From a virus, in IMG/VR virus record IMGVR_UViG_3300034980_000208, positions 1 through 40,829 of that record: a stretch of 40,829 bases of DNA. One strand, given 5' to 3'. The stretch's first letter is position 1. Each line of letters begins with the position of its first letter. Positions 9,294-36,751 of the stretch are shown here, one piece after another. The translations under genes were made by a program, and so were the position numbers. Below the pieces are notes generated by a model. That model was not told the origin of the DNA and ran no database searches. It worked only from the letters and a program-made list of their open reading frames with translations.

Positions 9294-9766
9294 TGTACGG
9301 GATCGAGATTCAAATTGAGCGGGCACAATTGACGCCGCGAAAGCACGGGCAATTGATGAAGGAGATCAATCGGCGCGTGATGGACCGCCACGTGACGCAT
9401 CGCCTGCCGAATCACTTTGAGGAATCAGCACACAGCGAATACGGAGCGCGCCCGAGGTCTGCAAAGTACAACAAAGCGAAAATGCGGAAGTATGAGCACA
9501 AAAAGCCAAACGTGTTTTCCGGGCATTTACAACAGTCAATCAGAACGTCGATAACGGCAACGCAGTACGGGGCGAAACTGACAATCAAAGCCAGCTACAA
9601 CCCGAAGAAGAAAAAGCAATCGAGAATGGCGGACTGGCAGAAGCGGGAAATCGCTGTCATGTCAAACGATGAATTGAAGCAGGAACAACAGCGGCAGGCG
9701 TCCGAGTACAAACGCGGAGCCACGTCAGACAAGTACCGGCGAAAACGAAAACGAAGGGTTAAGTAA
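9293..9766 (+). CDS. Basic head-tail joining candidate (HK97 gp10-like position)
   Basis: This 157-residue, strongly basic protein ends in KYRRKRKRRVK. It contains an N-terminal helix (PRKHGQLMKEINRRVMDRHV) and a region with VFSGHLQQSIRTSITATQYGAKLTI, which resembles the beta part of HK97 gp10-like or virion-morphogenesis proteins. I chose ATG 9293 for its TGATG overlap with the preceding stop; an upstream in-frame start at 9254 lies inside that gene. Position between terminator-like and tail-tube genes supports a joining role, but similarity is weak. Confidence 0.6.
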   Translation: MYGIEIQIERAQLTPRKHGQLMKEINRRVMDRHVTHRLPNHFEESAHSEYGARPRSAKYNKAKMRKYEHKKPNVFSGHLQQSIRTSITATQYGAKLTIKASYNPKKKKQSRMADWQKREIAVMSNDELKQEQQRQASEYKRGATSDKYRRKRKRRVK

Positions 9767-10662
9767 TGTCAAACATCTGGGTTCTCGCGGACGCCATACT
9801 CGGCAGCACAACCGTCAAGCAGATCACGCAATCTGATTTCAGTAGCAATCAGGAACACCGCAAGGGCATGGAGTCAGGCGGAAACGCAATCTCACTGGTG
9901 AGCGGCAAGTCGCAAGCGGACGTGACGTCATTTACCACGGCCGACTTGGCGACACTGCTCGCAGTCGGGACAAACACTTACTGCTCGGCAGGCGTGTCGC
10001 TACTTTCCAGCACGATCACATTCCCCAAGAAGTTCCGATCTGCCGGTGCAAGTTTTAAGGCACTGTCGACCAATCACGCCAATATCACGGGCAGCAACGC
10101 ACTGATCGTGCCGACATCGATCGAGGCGAGCCAGGACGGAGACTTTGCGACGATGTCCAGTGAGTGCCATTGGCTGTCGGCTGACGGATTTGCCGATGCC
10201 GTTTCAGATACGGCGTCCTACACGCTGGTTGCACAAACATACAACAGAGAATTTGCGCTGGGTCCGGTCACGATCAACGGCTCGGCAGTTCCGGGCGTGC
10301 AGTCAATCCGTATTACGCCGGGCCTTGAAGTTGTGAAGCCGCCGACTGGGAAGGGCGCAGTGTTTCCGGTATTTGCGAGCATCAAGAGCATCACGCCGAC
10401 AATGGAAATCACAGTAAACGATTTCGCGGCGGTTGCCGGTACTGTTGGTAATTTCACTGCAATGACTGCGGCAGTTGTGTACTTGCGACGCCGGGCGGAT
10501 AGCGGCGAATACACTGGCGGCAGTACGGACATCAGCTTGACCTTCGCGGCTGGACTCGCTGACACCAACAACATCAGCGCGAGCGGCAACGACGACGGCA
10601 GCGCCACGATTACGCTGCATGGAAAAACACTCACCGCATCTGTTGCAGCCACGAGTCCATAG
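9766..10662 (+). CDS. Major tail tube protein candidate
   Basis: This 298-residue protein is rich in Thr, Ser, Ala and Gly, with regular short beta strands, as expected for a tail tube subunit. Segments such as YTLVAQTYNREFALGPVTI and GVQSIRITPGLEV read as tube-like beta sandwich. The C-terminal part (SGNDDGSATITL) could be an Ig-like decoration. It lies at the usual place, after the head-tail joining genes and one gene before the tape measure. The start is in TAATG overlap with the previous gene. Confidence 0.65.
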   Translation: MSNIWVLADAILGSTTVKQITQSDFSSNQEHRKGMESGGNAISLVSGKSQADVTSFTTADLATLLAVGTNTYCSAGVSLLSSTITFPKKFRSAGASFKALSTNHANITGSNALIVPTSIEASQDGDFATMSSECHWLSADGFADAVSDTASYTLVAQTYNREFALGPVTINGSAVPGVQSIRITPGLEVVKPPTGKGAVFPVFASIKSITPTMEITVNDFAAVAGTVGNFTAMTAAVVYLRRRADSGEYTGGSTDISLTFAAGLADTNNISASGNDDGSATITLHGKTLTASVAATSP

Positions 10663-13545: not shown

Positions 13546-15497
13546 TGGGATACACGGACGTCATCAACACGACCGGGGCCATTTTCCAGGTCTACCCGGA
13601 ACTGATCGCATACCTGGGCAGCGCGGCTGGTGATCCTCCCCCGGCGGAATCGCCTACAGTATTTGATGGCGTCCATGTCGTGCGTGTGGTTCAGTCCGCT
13701 AGCGGTTCGCGGCTGGACTTTGCGCAGTTGCAAAATCATCTGACGGCATCACTGGAGAACCGGGCTCAACCAGCAAACTTCACGCGAATGGTTGGGGCGC
13801 ATCTGCCAGACGCAACAGAGACGCGGGTTCACCTTGGCGACTTAGTGGAGGAATCGGTCGGCGTTGATATGGACGCCGAATCACTGACCACGCAGAGCCA
13901 ACTTCGTCCGTACCATTTCGGCGGTGTGGTCGAGGGATACAACGTCCACGAACCGAACACGGCTACGACCGTGCTGATCGAAGACGATGTGACGTTCAAC
14001 CCTGTAGTGGATGACGTGACACGCGGAAACAGGTCGGACCTGCAGGACGGAGGCGCGTATCTGTGGACGCACGCGGAATTGATTGATAACACGGCGGGCG
14101 AAGTGTTCCACACGCAGGAGCGCAGCGAATGGAATCTGCAAGATGCAGTCGAAGCGGTGTGTGTGCTGTTGAATCCTGACGAAGAATTTATCGACAATCC
14201 CACAGCCACACAACTCAGCAAGCTAAGTGCGGCACCTGAGATTCGCGACTTGACGATACCGATCGGAATGCGATTGCCGGACGCGCTCGACAAGATGCTG
14301 ATTCCGCTCGGGTTCAACTGGTTTGTGGATTACGCATATACAGGACTGCCGGAGTCTGGGGCTTTCAATTCCCCTACAATCAAACTGTTCGAGATCGGCG
14401 TCGGTGACGAAAAAGAATTAAAGATGCAGGCGGCAGGTTCATCACTCGATCTTGAATTGTCGAACCTTAACCAGTTCAATATCTCAAATGCAATCGGCGA
14501 CAGCTTTAACGAAGTCCTCGCGCTCGGTGAATTCCATGAAGCCGAAGTGACGATTCCGTTGTATGCGGGATGGCCGGAAGATGGCGACGGCGTAGAGCGG
14601 TCAGACCTTGCCAAAGACGGGGACCAGTACATTGGAAACGAAACAACATGGCGGCTGTTCATCGCCAACGAAGCCGCAGATATTGACCCAACGGATTCAC
14701 GCCTCGGCGTGTTTCCTGCGTCCCCTGACTTTTCTCAGGTGTTCAGCAAGGCGGTTCCGCATCGCCGCGTGCTTGGTGAGCCGCTAACTTACCTTGACGG
14801 CAACACAACCAGCAGGACCGGCACACCTGCCGGCATTAAGCCACAGCGCCGCCCGATTTTTCTGGAATGGTCGGACGACGCAGGCGAAACGTGGAAACCC
14901 GAGGAAGAATCATGGACCGTTAAACTATGTCCGGACCAGATTGGCATCCTGTTCGACAGCAAGGAAGTTCCGCAGGAATTGTACGAGGCAGGCGATCAAC
15001 TGCGGATGCGGATCACCGGCACGATATTCGGTGACGTTCGATTGCAAGGACTGGCGGAAAAAGAGCCGCATTCCGCAAACGGTCGCACCATTCGTCAGGT
15101 GCTCGACGTGCCCGACAAGTTCCATAAACGCTGGCGCGAGATATTCGGGCCGTTCACGAGTCAGCTTTACTTCACGACCAACGATGCAGACGAACGTGAT
15201 GACACGGACGCAATCCTCGAATACGCCGAAAACATCCGCGACAAGAACCATCACGCCGAGATCGATTGTGAGTTCCGCCTGCCCGGCTGGCATACCGAGT
15301 ACAAAATCGGTGACCTGATCACAAAGATCGCGGGGCGTGAAATCAGCCTCGATGCAGCGGCGTCCACGTCGCCCGACAATCGGTACGTGCAGATCGTGGA
15401 ACGTATATTTGAGATGTCTACAAGTAGCGGACCGGCGACGGTTCTCGTGGTGGATCGCGGCGTGTCACAAGCCAGGACACCCGCCGATGCGACGTAA
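13545..15497 (+). CDS. Large minor tail protein (hub/distal tail candidate)
   Basis: This 650-residue protein of mixed beta and loop character has many Asp/Glu and few Cys. The N-terminus (TDVINTTGAIFQVYPELI) is followed by VVRVVQSASGSRLDF. The middle contains RLPDALDKMLIPLGFNWFVDY, which resembles the domain of tail hub proteins that holds a helix-beta module. Position two genes after the tape measure supports a tail-tip structural role. I do not see lysozyme or peptidase motifs. Exact function is unassigned. Confidence 0.65.
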   Translation: MGYTDVINTTGAIFQVYPELIAYLGSAAGDPPPAESPTVFDGVHVVRVVQSASGSRLDFAQLQNHLTASLENRAQPANFTRMVGAHLPDATETRVHLGDLVEESVGVDMDAESLTTQSQLRPYHFGGVVEGYNVHEPNTATTVLIEDDVTFNPVVDDVTRGNRSDLQDGGAYLWTHAELIDNTAGEVFHTQERSEWNLQDAVEAVCVLLNPDEEFIDNPTATQLSKLSAAPEIRDLTIPIGMRLPDALDKMLIPLGFNWFVDYAYTGLPESGAFNSPTIKLFEIGVGDEKELKMQAAGSSLDLELSNLNQFNISNAIGDSFNEVLALGEFHEAEVTIPLYAGWPEDGDGVERSDLAKDGDQYIGNETTWRLFIANEAADIDPTDSRLGVFPASPDFSQVFSKAVPHRRVLGEPLTYLDGNTTSRTGTPAGIKPQRRPIFLEWSDDAGETWKPEEESWTVKLCPDQIGILFDSKEVPQELYEAGDQLRMRITGTIFGDVRLQGLAEKEPHSANGRTIRQVLDVPDKFHKRWREIFGPFTSQLYFTTNDADERDDTDAILEYAENIRDKNHHAEIDCEFRLPGWHTEYKIGDLITKIAGREISLDAAASTSPDNRYVQIVERIFEMSTSSGPATVLVVDRGVSQARTPADAT

Positions 15498-22197: not shown

Positions 22198-22435
22198 TGA
22201 TGGTGTTTGTGTAGATGGCTCTGACTATGGCGATGGCGATGGCTATGGCGATGGCGATGGCGATGGCTATGGCTATGGCTATGGCGATGGCGATGGCTAT
22301 GGCTATGGCTATGGCTATGGCTATGGCTCTGACTATGGCGATGGCTATGGCTCTGACTATGGCGATGGCGATGGCTATGGCGATGGCTCTGACTATGGCT
22401 CTGGCTATGGCAAGAAAGGAAACGCAACATGCTAA
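22184..22435 (+). CDS. Gly-Tyr-Asp-Ser repeat protein
   Basis: This 83-residue low-complexity protein is made mostly of GD, GY and GS dipeptides, with GSDY units. The start is GTG 22184, with AAGGAG at 22171-22176 and 7-nt spacing, which fixes this frame. The Met-Ala repeat frame at 22215 has no such site and would be hydrophobic. It overlaps the end of the DUF6948-like gene and the start of csrA. Composition resembles Gly/Tyr-rich disordered proteins that form condensates, but that is speculation. It begins MQLHDDGVCVDGS and ends GKKGNATC. Confidence 0.65.
   Translation: MQLHDDGVCVDGSDYGDGDGYGDGDGDGYGYGYGDGDGYGYGYGYGYGSDYGDGYGSDYGDGDGYGDGSDYGSGYGKKGNATC
22214..22411 (+). repeat. Hexanucleotide GGCNAT/GGCTCT tandem repeat
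   Basis: About 33 hexamer units with core GGCGAT, GGCTAT or GGCTCTGACTAT run without a break. None of the frames on either strand contains a stop through the block, so open frames here are not evidence by themselves. Repeats of this length change copy number easily. Confidence 0.9.
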
Positions 22436-33062: not shown

Positions 33063-33465
33063 TCTGTGTGAAGACGCAACTGCACATCACCAGTCGACTC
33101 AAGATCTGGTCGACAAAAACATCTCAACCGTTGAAAAATGCCTGCAGTATCAGCAAGAAATCGAAGATCAATTTACGGACCTTGAACAGCAGTTGAATTT
33201 TTGGACGTCGATTCGCGAAACCTATTCTGATTCGGAGGAGTATTTTGCAAAATTCGCGGATCAGATGATTGCGGAAACCACACAGGAATTGATCGAGACA
33301 ACCGCTCGACTGAAGCGAGCGGCGTGGATGGTCGGCATGGCGCAACAGTTATTGCTTGATGCGGCGAAACAGTGGCTTCGCAGTCAGGCGGCGATGTGGG
33401 CCGCGTGTGGATATTGGGATGGTGCTGATCCCGGTTTGCCAGTGCCTGATCCAGAGTTCGAGTGA
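33010..33465 (+). CDS. Secreted helical protein
   Basis: This 151-residue protein starts at ATG 33010 with GAAGGAAACC upstream. A signal peptide (KTVLIAILILSPAATA) is followed by Cys and a long helical region (VEKCLQYQQEIEDQFTDLEQQL and TQELIETTARLKRAAW). It ends with an acidic Pro-rich tail. It would be exported and may form a coiled coil in the periplasm. The function is unknown. It is the last gene before the attC array. Confidence 0.65.
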   Translation: MKTVLIAILILSPAATADLCEDATAHHQSTQDLVDKNISTVEKCLQYQQEIEDQFTDLEQQLNFWTSIRETYSDSEEYFAKFADQMIAETTQELIETTARLKRAAWMVGMAQQLLLDAAKQWLRSQAAMWAACGYWDGADPGLPVPDPEFE

Positions 33466-33467
33466 TT

Positions 33468-33562
33468 CCGCATAGCGTCAGCGTTAACCGGGCCGCCGCT
33501 AATGGCCCTCGATTACAGATTCAGCACGAACGGCGGCTCCGCGTTGAACGCATTGTTATCTG
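33468..33562 (-). repeat. attC site 1 (left edge of array)
   Basis: Left core CCGCATAGC is at 33468-33476, left arm begins GCGTTAACCGGGCCG, the right arm ends CTCCGCGTTGAACGC, and right core GTTATCTG is at 33555-33562. The right arm is longer than the left by three extra bases, which matches the bottom strand of classical attC sites. The left core differs from ATAAC by one base, so this edge is degenerate. In-frame ATG 33502 lies in the loop. Confidence 0.75.
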
Positions 33563-33573
33563 CTAGGTGTAGC

Positions 33574-34017
33574 ATGGCTGTGTATGCTATCGTTAATGAG
33601 TCACGAACGGACGTGAAGATAGGCAAGTCGGACGCGCCAGAAAAACGGCTGAAGACACTGCAAACGGGCAGGGCAGAGCCGCTGTTTCTGCTTGGCACGA
33701 TTCCGGGAGGCTACCACGAGGAAAAGTCATTACAGCGACGATTTGCGGAACACCGGTTGCATGGAGAGTGGTTTGATTTTGCGGCAATTGAAACAGATCT
33801 TCGTGAGTTGATTAGTGAGGATCGGGAAATACGACGCGACAAAACATACCCAATCTGGGAGTGGTGTTTAGTTACCGGAGAGACAGAAGAATTGTTGTGG
33901 CTTGCCCATGCACGGCACGGTGAACTAATTGTGCTAAGTTGGAATGGGAGAGACTACCGCGTGAGCGGACAGGCGTGGGTGGACTTCTGTGAGTGGCGAA
34001 AAATGTTCGACAGATAA
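33574..34017 (+). CDS. GIY-YIG protein (T5orf172/MUG113-like), cassette A
   Basis: This 147-residue protein shows the T5orf172-type GIY-YIG pattern: VYAIVNESRTDVKIGKS, EKRLKTLQTGRAEPLFLLGTIPGGYHEEKSL, RRFAEHRLHGEWFDF. It has a longer C-terminal part (WLAHARHGELIVLSWNG). GIY-YIG domains cleave DNA. I chose ATG 33574 because AGGTG lies just upstream; ATG 33502 in the attC 1 loop is also in frame. Its stop TAA at 34015-34017 sits inside the ATAAC core of the next site. The cassette ends TTATCTG and CAGATAA are exact complements. Confidence 0.8.
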   Translation: MAVYAIVNESRTDVKIGKSDAPEKRLKTLQTGRAEPLFLLGTIPGGYHEEKSLQRRFAEHRLHGEWFDFAAIETDLRELISEDREIRRDKTYPIWEWCLVTGETEELLWLAHARHGELIVLSWNGRDYRVSGQAWVDFCEWRKMFDR

Positions 34018-34101
34018 CGGCTGCATTAACCGGGCGGCGGCGGGCGGCTCGGATTTGCAAATTGGACGCTGCCCGCCGCTCCGGTTGAATGCTTTGTTAT
34101 G
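34011..34101 (-). repeat. attC site 2
   Basis: Core CAGATAAC at 34011-34018 complements GTTATCTG of site 1. The arms are GCATTAACCGG and CCGGTTGAATGC, where the right arm has one extra G within the arm and one extra T just outside it. The middle is GC-rich (GCGGCGGCGGGC / GCCCGCCGC), and right core GTTATG is at 34096-34101. This is the clearest site and the closest to a classical attC stem. Confidence 0.88.
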
Positions 34102-34404
34102 TTGCATTCCGAGACTGTCACGAATGATCGATCCTACGCCACATGTGACTTTTGCCATAAGCGATTGGAACGACACAAGCAGTGTCCCGGTTGTGGAAAA
34201 GACGTGTGCCCACAGTGCGGACATTGGTGGTTTCAGGACCCGTGGACGCAAGACGACAACGGAGATTACCCGCCGCTGGCGTGTGAGCGATGCAACATGC
34301 TGGCACGCCAAATGGCACCAGCGTCCATCGAGATTCAGCAAGAGGCTGACGACAAGATCGACGCGATACAGGCCAAGTGGAAGCGTGAATGTTTGGCAAC
34401 ATAA
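34099..34404 (+). CDS. Zinc-ribbon protein, cassette B
   Basis: This 101-residue protein starts at ATG 34099, which overlaps the GTTATG core of site 2. Zinc motifs are CDFC, CPGC, CPQCGH and CERC, giving two zinc sites in residues ~15-75, followed by a charged helix (EIQQEADDKIDAIQAKWKREC). The stop TAA at 34402-34404 lies inside the next ATAAC core. There is no clear ribosome site just before the start. A nucleic-acid or protein adaptor role is possible. Confidence 0.7.
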   Translation: MLHSETVTNDRSYATCDFCHKRLERHKQCPGCGKDVCPQCGHWWFQDPWTQDDNGDYPPLACERCNMLARQMAPASIEIQQEADDKIDAIQAKWKRECLAT

Positions 34405-34508
34405 CGACCAGCGGTAAGCCGGTTTTGAAATTCAACGAAAGCAATGGAAATGGACAACGCGAAAGAAACGGACGTTGCACAAAACTCGGCTTCAACGCCT
34501 TGTTCTAC
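34396..34508 (-). repeat. attC site 3
   Basis: Core GCAACATAAC at 34396-34405 is the exact complement of GTTATGTTGC at the start of cassette B. Arms GCGGTAAGCCGGTTTTG and CAAAACTCGGCTTCAACGC pair with one mismatch and two extra right-arm bases. Right core GTTCTAC is at 34502-34508. The large loop (34427-34480) contains the start codon of the next gene at 34444. Confidence 0.82.
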
Positions 34509-34734
34509 GGATGGTGATAAGTTGATCGACGTGTGGGAAGTCTGGCCTCATTGGGACACGACGTATGATTATTTCATCTGCAACGATGGGTGTCAGGTTG
34601 AAGAAGCTGTGCGGCAAGTCGCTGAGTCGTTTATGGATGCGTGCCCGCCACCAGGTGAGTCGCGAACGATAACGATTAAAGTCAAAGAGATGCCACGGCA
34701 TGAATATGAAGAATTGACAGCACCGGAACCGTGA
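34444..34734 (+). CDS. Hypothetical protein, cassette C (start in attC loop)
   Basis: This 96-residue protein starts at ATG 34444 in the loop of site 3 and reads through the right arm and core. The attC-encoded N-terminus (~22 residues) is hydrophilic; the remainder is acidic (LIDVWEVWPHWDTTYDYFICNDG) with a helical middle and an RTITIKVKEMPRHEYEEL strand. No other ATG is in frame after the core, which supports initiation within attC. No family is recognised. Confidence 0.65.
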   Translation: MEMDNAKETDVAQNSASTPCSTDGDKLIDVWEVWPHWDTTYDYFICNDGCQVEEAVRQVAESFMDACPPPGESRTITIKVKEMPRHEYEELTAPEP

Positions 34735-34735
34735 T

Positions 34736-34832
34736 TCCGTAGAACGCCCGCAATCACCGGGCACGAAAGGAAAGACTATGAGTTCAGAGGCGACGAAAAT
34801 GAGTGCTCCGCGTGCATTGCATTGTTATGCGG
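34736..34832 (-). repeat. attC site 4
   Basis: Core TCCGTAGAAC at 34736-34745 is the exact complement of GTTCTACGGA opening cassette C. Arms GCAATCACCGGGCAC and GTGCTCCGCGTGCATTGC pair with three extra right-arm bases. Right core GTTATGCGG is at 34824-34832. The loop holds AAGGAAAG and the ATG at 34778. Confidence 0.82.
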
Positions 34833-35131
34833 CAGTTTTGGAGCGAGCAAAACGGACGGTTGAGCAATGGGACAAGCACGACCGGTATCGGGAAACGGAA
34901 GCGGATGCGTCGTTGAGCGATCCGCAGATTGGCGAACCGGATGACGTGGCAATTGCCAGATCGTTGCTGAGTGCAGCAGAAGCGGCGACCGATTTGGAAC
35001 GGGGGTGCAAGTTGTATTGCGGTTGGTACGACACTGGAACGCCGCAAATGGAAGGCGGGTCAATGGCGTATGAGTTGGTGTCATTCATGCGGCAAGCATT
35101 GCACAAGATCAAGGGCGGAGAGTCCGCATAA
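34778..35131 (+). CDS. Hypothetical protein, cassette D (RBS and start in attC loop)
   Basis: This 117-residue protein starts at ATG 34778 with ribosome site AAGGAAAG, both inside the loop of site 4. The first ~16 residues are coded by attC. It is helical, with CYAAVLERAKRTVEQWDKH, SLLSAAEAATDLERGCKLY, and a C-terminal LVSFMRQALHKIKGG. No domain is recognised. The stop TAA at 35129-35131 lies in the next ATAAC core. Confidence 0.7.
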   Translation: MSSEATKMSAPRALHCYAAVLERAKRTVEQWDKHDRYRETEADASLSDPQIGEPDDVAIARSLLSAAEAATDLERGCKLYCGWYDTGTPQMEGGSMAYELVSFMRQALHKIKGGESA

Positions 35132-35239
35132 CGACAGGCGTAACCGGTGTTGTGACATTCGACCACGCATAGGCAATTTAAGGTAATCGAAAAATGGCAG
35201 ACGATAACACAACTCCGGTTCACGCAATTGTTGTCCTGC
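35124..35239 (-). repeat. attC site 5
   Basis: Core CCGCATAAC at 35124-35132 is the exact complement of GTTATGCGG opening cassette D. Arms GCGTAACCGGTGTTGTG and CACAACTCCGGTTCACGC pair almost completely, with an extra G/C. Right core GTTGTCCTGC is at 35230-35239. The loop contains AAGGTAATCG and the ATG at 35194. Confidence 0.85.
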
Positions 35240-35487
35240 TTGAGAGGTTGGTTGCAGCGGTCGAGCGTCTGACTGATCCACCAGGTAGTTCTCGGCATGA
35301 ATTGGTTGCGATGATACCGCCGCGATATAGAGGCAGGGCGGATGAAATAATTGAGGTCATCAGGGATAATTGCGGCGATAAATCTACAATGTGCAGTGAA
35401 TTCCGAAAGCGTGGAATCATTTCAAAAAACACGTCTATCTGTGATGTCAGTTTCCACCAACAGTTAGATCGGCACTTTGCAGGATAA
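35194..35487 (+). CDS. Hypothetical protein, cassette E (RBS and start in attC loop)
   Basis: This 97-residue protein starts at ATG 35194 with AAGGTAA upstream, both in the loop of site 5. The sequence continues through the right arm and core into IVVLLERLVAAVERLTDPPG, a helix, then ELVAMIPPRYRGRADEIIEVIRDNCG and a short C-terminal part. Its stop TAA is in the ATAAC of the right array edge. No family is recognised. Confidence 0.68.
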   Translation: MADDNTTPVHAIVVLLERLVAAVERLTDPPGSSRHELVAMIPPRYRGRADEIIEVIRDNCGDKSTMCSEFRKRGIISKNTSICDVSFHQQLDRHFAG

Positions 35488-35488
35488 C
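35479..35488 (-). repeat. Right edge core of attC array
   Basis: GCAGGATAAC complements GTTGTCCTGC (start of cassette E) at 9 of 10 positions. No paired arms follow, so this is the junction between the last cassette and phage sequence. ATTCCGCATAAGC at 35506-35518 repeats the sequence beside the left edge (ATTCCGCATAGC at 33466). Confidence 0.6.
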
Positions 35489-35572
35489 ATACATTATACC
35501 GACTCATTCCGCATAAGCCGCGAAACGCGATCCGGGTTGACGAAACGGGGCAATTCTGGCAATCTACGCGGC

Positions 35573-36751
35573 ATGAGATGCCTACTCGCCATCCTCCTCC
35601 TGACGCCCACTGCCGCCGCAGATATCACCGCGATCTATTTCGGGGCTGATTTCTGCGGACCGTGCCGGTCGCTCAGGCCGTCGCTGTCGATCCTGCAACG
35701 CGAATACGCTGTGCAGAAAATTGACACCAGCCGCGACCGAGCGACGACGCGGAAATACGAGATCCGGACGATTCCGCAGATCGTGTTTTTGGACGACGGT
35801 ATCGAGATCGACCGAATACAGGGAACGTCGCCTGACTGGCTCGCACGCTGCCGGATGCGATTGTCTGGCCGCAATAATTGGCGACCGATCAGAGCCGCTG
35901 TCAGAATCCGCACACCGGGCGGCATGGGATCGGGCGTGATCCTGTCCAGCGTACCGGGTCGAACGGTGATTGCGACTGCGGAACACGTCGTCCGAGGATC
36001 GCAAAGCGTGACAGTCGATCTGTTCCGCGACTTCGGCGTGAAAACGTATCCAGCGACCACAGCGACGATCAACACTGACCACGATTTAGCGTTGCTGCTG
36101 GTCGCTTCCAATACGCTCCCGCTACCTGCTGCACTCGGTGCTGAAAATACGGCTGTCAGTTTGGGCGACACCGTTTTCGGAATCGGGTGCAGCGGTGGTC
36201 GGGGCGTATCGACGATGGTCAGTCGCGTTGTATCGGTCGATGGCGGCGACGTGTTCGCCTCGGGCGTTGTCGCACAGGGCCGGAGCGGTGGTGGTCTGTA
36301 CAATCGCAGATTCGAGTTGATAGGGATCTGTTCGGCAACGAACAGCAGGAGGCAGGATGGATGGTACATCGGAGCGGGGAAACTACAGGCACTTCTCAGC
36401 GAGTGGAAGCCGACGCAGTACAGGAGGGCGGGTGGTTTTGGCGTAGGTGTTGGTATCGGTATCGGGATGTCATGCGGACTCAGGCCATGCACGAATCTGA
36501 ACTGCCCGAGGTGCAGGCCGCGACCAGTCTCAGGGATACCCGGCCCGCGTGGAACAAGAGGCGAACGCGGATCACAGGGACCGCCAGGCGTGTCACCAGA
36601 TCTGTCGCCACTGATTCGCAGAATTGAAGCACTCGAAAAACAGAAACGCGAAGTTGTCCTGATGGACGGCAAAACGAAAACGGTGATTGACCGTGAATCC
36701 TACGCGGCAGACGAACCGATCATTTTGGACGTTCGGCAACTCACAAAATGA
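35573..36751 (+). CDS. Secreted thioredoxin-trypsin-like protease-collagen fusion
   Basis: This 392-residue protein starts at ATG 35573. Residues 1-16 form a signal peptide. Residues ~17-95 form a thioredoxin fold with CGPC at 28-31 and a cis-Pro region (RTIPQIVFLDDG). Residues ~108-275 form a trypsin-like protease with His138 (ATAEHV), Asp171 (TDHDLALL) and Ser238 (GRSGGG). Then come a Gly-Val-rich stretch, a CPRC-type Cys pair, collagen-like GxP repeats (GIPGPRGTRGERGSQGPPG) and a charged helical end. It would act outside the cytoplasm. Domain calls are strong; role in the phage cycle is unknown. Confidence 0.88.
   Translation: MRCLLAILLLTPTAAADITAIYFGADFCGPCRSLRPSLSILQREYAVQKIDTSRDRATTRKYEIRTIPQIVFLDDGIEIDRIQGTSPDWLARCRMRLSGRNNWRPIRAAVRIRTPGGMGSGVILSSVPGRTVIATAEHVVRGSQSVTVDLFRDFGVKTYPATTATINTDHDLALLLVASNTLPLPAALGAENTAVSLGDTVFGIGCSGGRGVSTMVSRVVSVDGGDVFASGVVAQGRSGGGLYNRRFELIGICSATNSRRQDGWYIGAGKLQALLSEWKPTQYRRAGGFGVGVGIGIGMSCGLRPCTNLNCPRCRPRPVSGIPGPRGTRGERGSQGPPGVSPDLSPLIRRIEALEKQKREVVLMDGKTKTVIDRESYAADEPIILDVRQLTK

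Follow-up and report, generated by a model that had tools for sequence, protein, structure and literature searches.

A phage integron cassette array with genes reversed relative to their attC sites

Arrays of attC sites and gene cassettes have been described in phage genomes as CALINs or integrons, namely in TJE1, PH101, P12002L, M16-3 and Va_90-11-286_p16 (Qi et al. 2023, PMC9892861). Most of these phage arrays lack intI, like the array described below; phage attC sites were recombined by IntI1, with the bottom strands performing better for PH101; and the TJE1 and PH101 arrays are called typical. The parts of that paper used here hold no description of a conserved phage attI, attC-internal starts or cassette exchange between phages, all of which are found in the family reported here. 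Phage attC arrays are thus already known (Qi et al. 2023); for the reversed layout we found no description in the open-access literature, where our search returned no paper on reversed phage cassettes, attC-internal starts or the TTTGAATTATC attI.

With class 1 integrons and the Vibrio sedentary chromosomal integron, the present array shares R and L boxes, two extrahelical bases, AAC/GTT cores and complementary cassette ends, and the attI of its family has the same AAAG↓TT core (arrows mark joins). It differs from both in that its genes point toward attI, that attC lies 5′ of the gene and not 3′, that the start codon often falls within attC and that intI is absent from the window. The extra bases of known cassettes are located in the left arm on the gene strand, where the site reads TAACAA...GCGTTA. 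In the inverted-integrase integron of Treponema denticola, the inverted element is intI itself, and attI is found at its 3′ end. Phages that carry IntI share with inverted-integrase integrons a single direction of intI and cassette genes; in contrast to Treponema, the phage array lies 5′ of intI as in normal integrons, and it is the genes that are flipped within the cassettes.

The window, by which we mean the whole stretch of DNA analysed, is the linear IMG/VR virus record IMGVR_UViG_3300034980_000208 (40,829 bases). It carries lambda-type phage genes (gpA terminase, portal, S49 protease and RecT), and five cassettes occupy positions 33470-35487. An earlier note on this DNA had proposed an integron-type array without integrase in a phage genome, which is supported by a covariance model, folds, cassette ends, profile searches and the phage genes. 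Our main result is that the cassette genes have reversed polarity.

attC sites and cassettes in the window

A covariance model (R1) was built from 42 attC sites of other phages, with the window excluded. Run over the 40.8 kb at E≤1, it returned exactly five sites, all on the minus strand, and nothing else. These are the five attC-like sites that the earlier note had located, recovered independently with E-values, rough as they are in this model, from 2e-15 to 1.2e-7:

33470-33560, minus: attC site 1, the attC of cassette 1 (R1 E=3.5e-14; fold)
34012-34101, minus: attC site 2, the attC of cassette 2 (R1 E=2e-15; fold z=-4.75)
34399-34507, minus: attC site 3, the attC of cassette 3, with the start codon of the gene in its loop (R1 E=1.2e-7)
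34739-34829, minus: attC site 4, the attC of cassette 4, with a Shine-Dalgarno-like AGGAAAG and an ATG in its loop (R1 E=1.4e-14)
35126-35235, minus: attC site 5, the attC of cassette 5, with a Shine-Dalgarno-like AAGG and an ATG in its loop (R1 E=7.8e-8)

The outer core of the leftmost site, attC 1, has decayed to GCTATGC (GC in place of GTT on the minus strand), and this site therefore marks the far end of the array. When the sites were folded as single-stranded DNA, the hairpin arms were present, together with an extra T and G/C in the plus-strand right arm. The attC hairpin with R and L boxes and extrahelical bases, by which an integron gene cassette is recognised, was thus found both by folding and by R1, and the array of attC sites is confirmed as real.

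The cassette ends agree with this identification. Over the seven bases beyond the AAC/GTT cores, 31 of 35 positions are complementary between the two ends of a cassette (binomial 4e-15), and of the 120 possible pairings of ends only the true one reaches this value; the two ends within one site match at 13 of 28 positions only. The reverse-complement ends reported in the earlier note therefore stand, and they correspond to one cassette per excised circle. The units so delimited are as follows:

33476-34017, minus: cassette 1 unit, comprising its own attC and gene (ends complementary; limits by analogy with cassettes shared among relatives)
34018-34404, minus: cassette 2 unit (ends complementary at 7/7)
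34405-34744, minus: cassette 3 unit (7/7)
34745-35131, minus: cassette 4 unit (6/7)
35132-35487, minus: cassette 5 unit (6/7), adjoining the attI-like end

The crossover of cassette 1 lies at ATAA↓C, 34017/34018. Profiles for IntI (TIGR02249) and for tyrosine recombinases (PF00589) matched nothing across the whole 40,829-base record, in line with the earlier statement that no tyrosine recombinase is visible. With five attC sites and no integron integrase, the array falls under the definition of a CALIN (at least two attC sites, integrase absent), and the missing intI sets it apart from a complete integron. The genes of the five cassettes all lie on the plus strand:

33574-34017, plus: cassette 1 gene, 147 aa, MUG113/T5orf172 (GIY-YIG type) by Pfam, running against its own attC
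34099-34404, plus: cassette 2 gene, 101 aa, zinc-ribbon-like ORF with its ATG within the core
34444-34734, plus: cassette 3 gene, 96 aa, ORF starting in the attC 3 loop
34778-35131, plus: cassette 4 gene, 117 aa, ORF starting in the attC 4 loop and stopping at the crossover
35194-35487, plus: cassette 5 gene, 97 aa, ORF starting in the attC 5 loop and stopping at the crossover

The Pfam assignment of cassette 1 was obtained with the in-frame ORF 33502-34017 (E=5e-10); family matches of the cassette 2 gene were weak only. In four of the five cassettes the stop codon is a TAA whose last A lies beside the crossover (34017, 34404, 35131 and 35487). The ORFs of cassettes 3, 4 and 5 start within the attC loop (34444, 34778 and 35194) and continue through the attC arm, with a Shine-Dalgarno-like sequence before two of the three starts (cassettes 4 and 5), and the arm codes for the leader MADDNTTPVHAIVV of the cassette 5 protein.

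The surroundings of the array were also searched. No Rfam family matched, the array DNA had no match among phage and plasmid records, and cassette 1 had no relative in IMG/VR; against GTDB genomes, the sole match to any of the five cassettes was to cassette 1, in a Pseudonocardia MAG. A TerL search gave 12 relatives, none of which (0/12) has the array region. Right of the attI-like end, the gene at 35573-36751 codes for a protein in which a thioredoxin domain is joined to a trypsin-like peptidase and which contains a collagen-like stretch, GPRGTRGERGSQGPPG; this protein had no relative in IMG/VR. The array is flanked by an imperfect 16-nt direct repeat (33459-33474, CGAGTGATTCCGCATA; 35500-35515, CGACTCATTCCGCATA), both copies of which contain the cassette 4 core CCGCATA; the repeats may be what is left of lost cassettes or of the target. 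Elsewhere in the window, at 22215-22411, there is a hexanucleotide tandem repeat, (ATGGCT)n, with 33 copies and 84% matches, which is open in several frames, for example as (MA)n on the plus strand.

Polarity of genes and attC sites

In class 1 integrons, Tetrasphaera phage TJE1, Shewanella phage M16-3 and Vibrio phage p16, which served as controls, genes and sites share a strand. In the window, the canonical attC reading, ATAACAAAGCATTCAACCGGAG...CCCGGTTAATGC..CGTTATC, is on the minus strand, and the genes are on the plus strand. With a broader covariance model (R2), the best window site scored 67 bits on minus, against 17 on plus, and the other four sites had no match on plus. The bulged bases lead to the same assignment. 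The extra bases that the earlier note had placed in the right arm are indeed there in the plus-strand fold, but in that arm they mark the plus strand as the attC bottom strand, and the array therefore points left.

Since bulged bases and sequence both put the attC top strand on minus and the genes are on plus, the polarity implied by the earlier note has to be reversed. In the normal layout, a gene lies on the attC top strand and ends before its own attC; in the window, the genes oppose attC, and the moving unit consists of the upstream attC and the gene. Under plus polarity, each exchange would separate the genes of cassettes 3, 4 and 5 from their starts. By covariance models, the genes follow the attC top strand in TJE1, M16-3 and p16 but are reversed in PH101, as they are in the window.

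Related arrays, cassette exchange and integrases

Related arrays were found with one loose attC pattern in IMG/VR together with one array-end pattern; a strict attC pattern had no viral match. The family comprises 92 sites in 15 phage contigs, the window included. In these metagenomic contigs, where direction was called from ORFs for each cassette and calibrated on normal integrons, a reversed ORF that covers 60% or more of the cassette and terminates at the next core was present in 59 of 75 cassettes (13 phage contigs). A mirror ORF was present in 12 of the 75, and all 12 carry the reversed ORF as well. An open ATG lies in 38 attC loops, 26 of them with a Shine-Dalgarno-like motif. Unrelated protein bodies have attC-encoded leaders in common (MENQNQADTAPVDRLVM, MENQKREDTAPVDRLVI and MEKQKQADTAPVDRLVM; the window leader is of the same type), and the leader MKAENGMTATPVEPIVS precedes two different methyltransferases of one phage. 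The stems covary at 11 of 13 pairs, and their two bulges occupy integrase contact positions.

At least three kinds of phage carry these arrays: the window; G013 and G017, with TerL, portal and a capsid-protease fusion (G017 also has Sak4); and G016, whose 70.7-kb record has terminal repeats of 127 nt and a different TerL. Reversed-strand cassette genes that Pfam names in the relatives are N6_N4_Mtase, MT-A70, PAPS_reduct, ASCH and DUF4326. Neighbouring phage genes in the window all run in the direction of the cassette genes, whereas the G017 cassettes run against their neighbours, so that co-transcription with a phage operon is not general.

Cassettes are identical or nearly so between different phages of the family. 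G025 and G028, which come from different metagenomes, share a 300-nt cassette at 100% identity; the identity is bounded by ATAAC cores, the neighbours differ, and the cassette lies beside attI in G025 and internally in G028. Further cassettes are shared by G013 and G017 (94%), G017 and G028 (99%), and G017 and G026 (99%). The unit shared between phages includes the upstream attC. The gene series ends on its 3′ side in the join AAC↓TTTGAATTATC[CA]GTC, which recurs in ten records after several different last cassettes (attI is clear in nine relatives), and the genes therefore point toward attI. Up to this join, G019 and G026 have 2 kb of identical sequence, and beyond it their cassettes are unrelated; the attI flank and the cassettes have only the core in common. 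The corresponding position in the window is:

35488-35512, minus: attI-like end, AAC↓ATACATTATACCGAC where relatives have AAC↓TTTGAATTATCCGTC (position and weak similarity)

Position and similarity are here only suggestive of an attI. The proposal that the cassettes were made by an integron integrase is borne out by the relatives, with their identical cassettes, precise core joins and conserved attI. Precise joins, which had been expected in related phages, were found in relatives of the array (G019/G026 and G025/G028) but not in close relatives of the window.

We found no intI in any record with the TTTGAATTATC attI, and it is absent in 11 array phages. An IntI alignment search gave 80 IMG/VR loci with IntI relatives, none of them (0/80) with this attI. 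In 54 of these loci, 128 of 132 R2 sites lie, relative to intI, on the same strand as in a normal integron. Among metagenomic phage contigs, the ratio of reversed to normal genes was 8:0 in L147, 4:0 in L126, 3:0 in L145 and 2:0 in L110, with 2:0 in L128, 2:0 in L134 and 4:1 in L125 as further cases. Three loci with Vibrio-type sites (L136, L138 and L142) have normal genes (0 reversed vs 13 normal), and some IntI-bearing loci have mixed gene directions.

The IntI proteins beside reversed arrays, of which six were tested, score 353-468 bits to TIGR02249 (cut-off 265), and a true intI thus adjoins reversed arrays in other phages. Phage genes are present at these loci, with a terminase directly after intI in L124, a tail fibre gene in L110 and a primase gene in L147. 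The order in L124, all in one direction, is cassette gene, attI region, Shine-Dalgarno sequence, intI and terminase. Finally, in the isolated lytic phage PH101 (Pseudoalteromonas phage H101/PH101; locus L185, 25920-27987), four attC sites are on plus and the annotated genes are all on minus. IntI beside reversed arrays and PH101 together show that integrase, attC sites and reversed genes co-occur in phages.

Among other candidates, the tyrosine recombinases of G013, G018 and G021 were excluded as IntI by score, and no array of the reversed kind adjoins the IntI-like protein of virus Rctr41k. In L135, attC-like sites lie 3′ of intI on the intI strand (9589-10639), as expected for an inverted-integrase integron, and L147 has a further attC-like site on the far side of intI from the array (14290-14363).

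Origin and meaning of the array

Our preferred reading, with a probability of roughly 0.78, is that the window carries an intI-less phage integron cassette array, part of a wider class with reversed genes, that is mobilised by an integrase in trans. Each unit consists of one attC followed by a gene on the strand opposite the attC top strand, which runs away from its own attC and ends at the next crossover. The attC loop would often provide the ribosome-binding site and start codon, so that the first residues of the protein would be a short leader encoded in the attC arm. The entry point for cassettes would be attI, on the 3′ side of the gene series, and the genes thus face attI and not away from it. 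An integron integrase, which we infer to come from the host or a co-infecting phage, would recombine attC sites folded as single strands, and phage transcription would probably express the genes. The cargo would be small accessory genes, probably used against host defences; an obvious guess is that methyltransferase cassettes may protect phage DNA from restriction, as is also argued in PMC9892861. Because the record holds no integrase, present activity in the window phage is unproven; the record may also be incomplete. Against this reading stand the window cassettes, unmatched elsewhere in phage and plasmid DNA, the weak similarity of the attI, the decayed leftmost core and the mixed gene directions at some IntI-bearing loci.

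A rival origin is an ordinary CALIN, in which a fragment of a chromosomal integron was taken up from a host in a single illegitimate recombination event and has since become inert; such capture has been proposed for some phages (PMC9892861). The lack of an integrase in the record, the decayed end site and the lack of relatives of the window's own cassettes are all compatible with this origin. We consider it unlikely, however, since all window genes oppose attC, unlike those of the normal integrons examined, sister arrays exchange identical cassettes and insert them at a phage-borne attI, and the layout recurs in phages with different terminases.

A phage recombinase could also have shuffled cassettes by homologous recombination between attC-like repeats that serve mainly as translation-start modules. 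RecT in the window, Sak4 in G017, the 11 array phages that lack intI and the conserved leaders would all suit this mechanism, but we regard it as very improbable. The joins fall exactly at the AAC↓TT core and not in the longer conserved arms, the stems covary and place two bulges at integrase contact positions, the attI flank shares only the core with the cassettes, and true IntI adjoins arrays of identical layout. Least probable of all is that the polarity was misread and the cassettes are normal, with plus as the attC top strand. The symmetry of the cassette ends would suit this, as would the stop codon in the ATAAC core, which normal cassettes can also have, but the R2 scores on the two strands, the upstream attC within the phage-shared unit and the attI at the 3′ end of the genes all speak against it.

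Beyond the phage array mobilised in trans, we lean, at slightly better than even odds, toward an integron form of the phages' own, in which the cassettes would have evolved the reversed layout, attC would act as translation start and N-terminal coding sequence, genes would be read toward attI and toward intI where there is one, structurally different phages would draw on one cassette pool, and IntI would be encoded by some and act in trans for others. The reversed layout is known here from viral records and may not be phage-specific. It would be overlooked by annotation in which gene direction and attC polarity are not compared; even the published PH101 array is called typical in PMC9892861.

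Integrons have so far been viewed as bacterial devices, occasionally picked up by phages. Our results point to a recurrent phage form of the integron, with opposite gene polarity, an attI of its own and ongoing cassette exchange. The trade of accessory genes such as methyltransferases among phages via integrons is now directly testable, as is a recombination hairpin that doubles as a translation-start and coding element.
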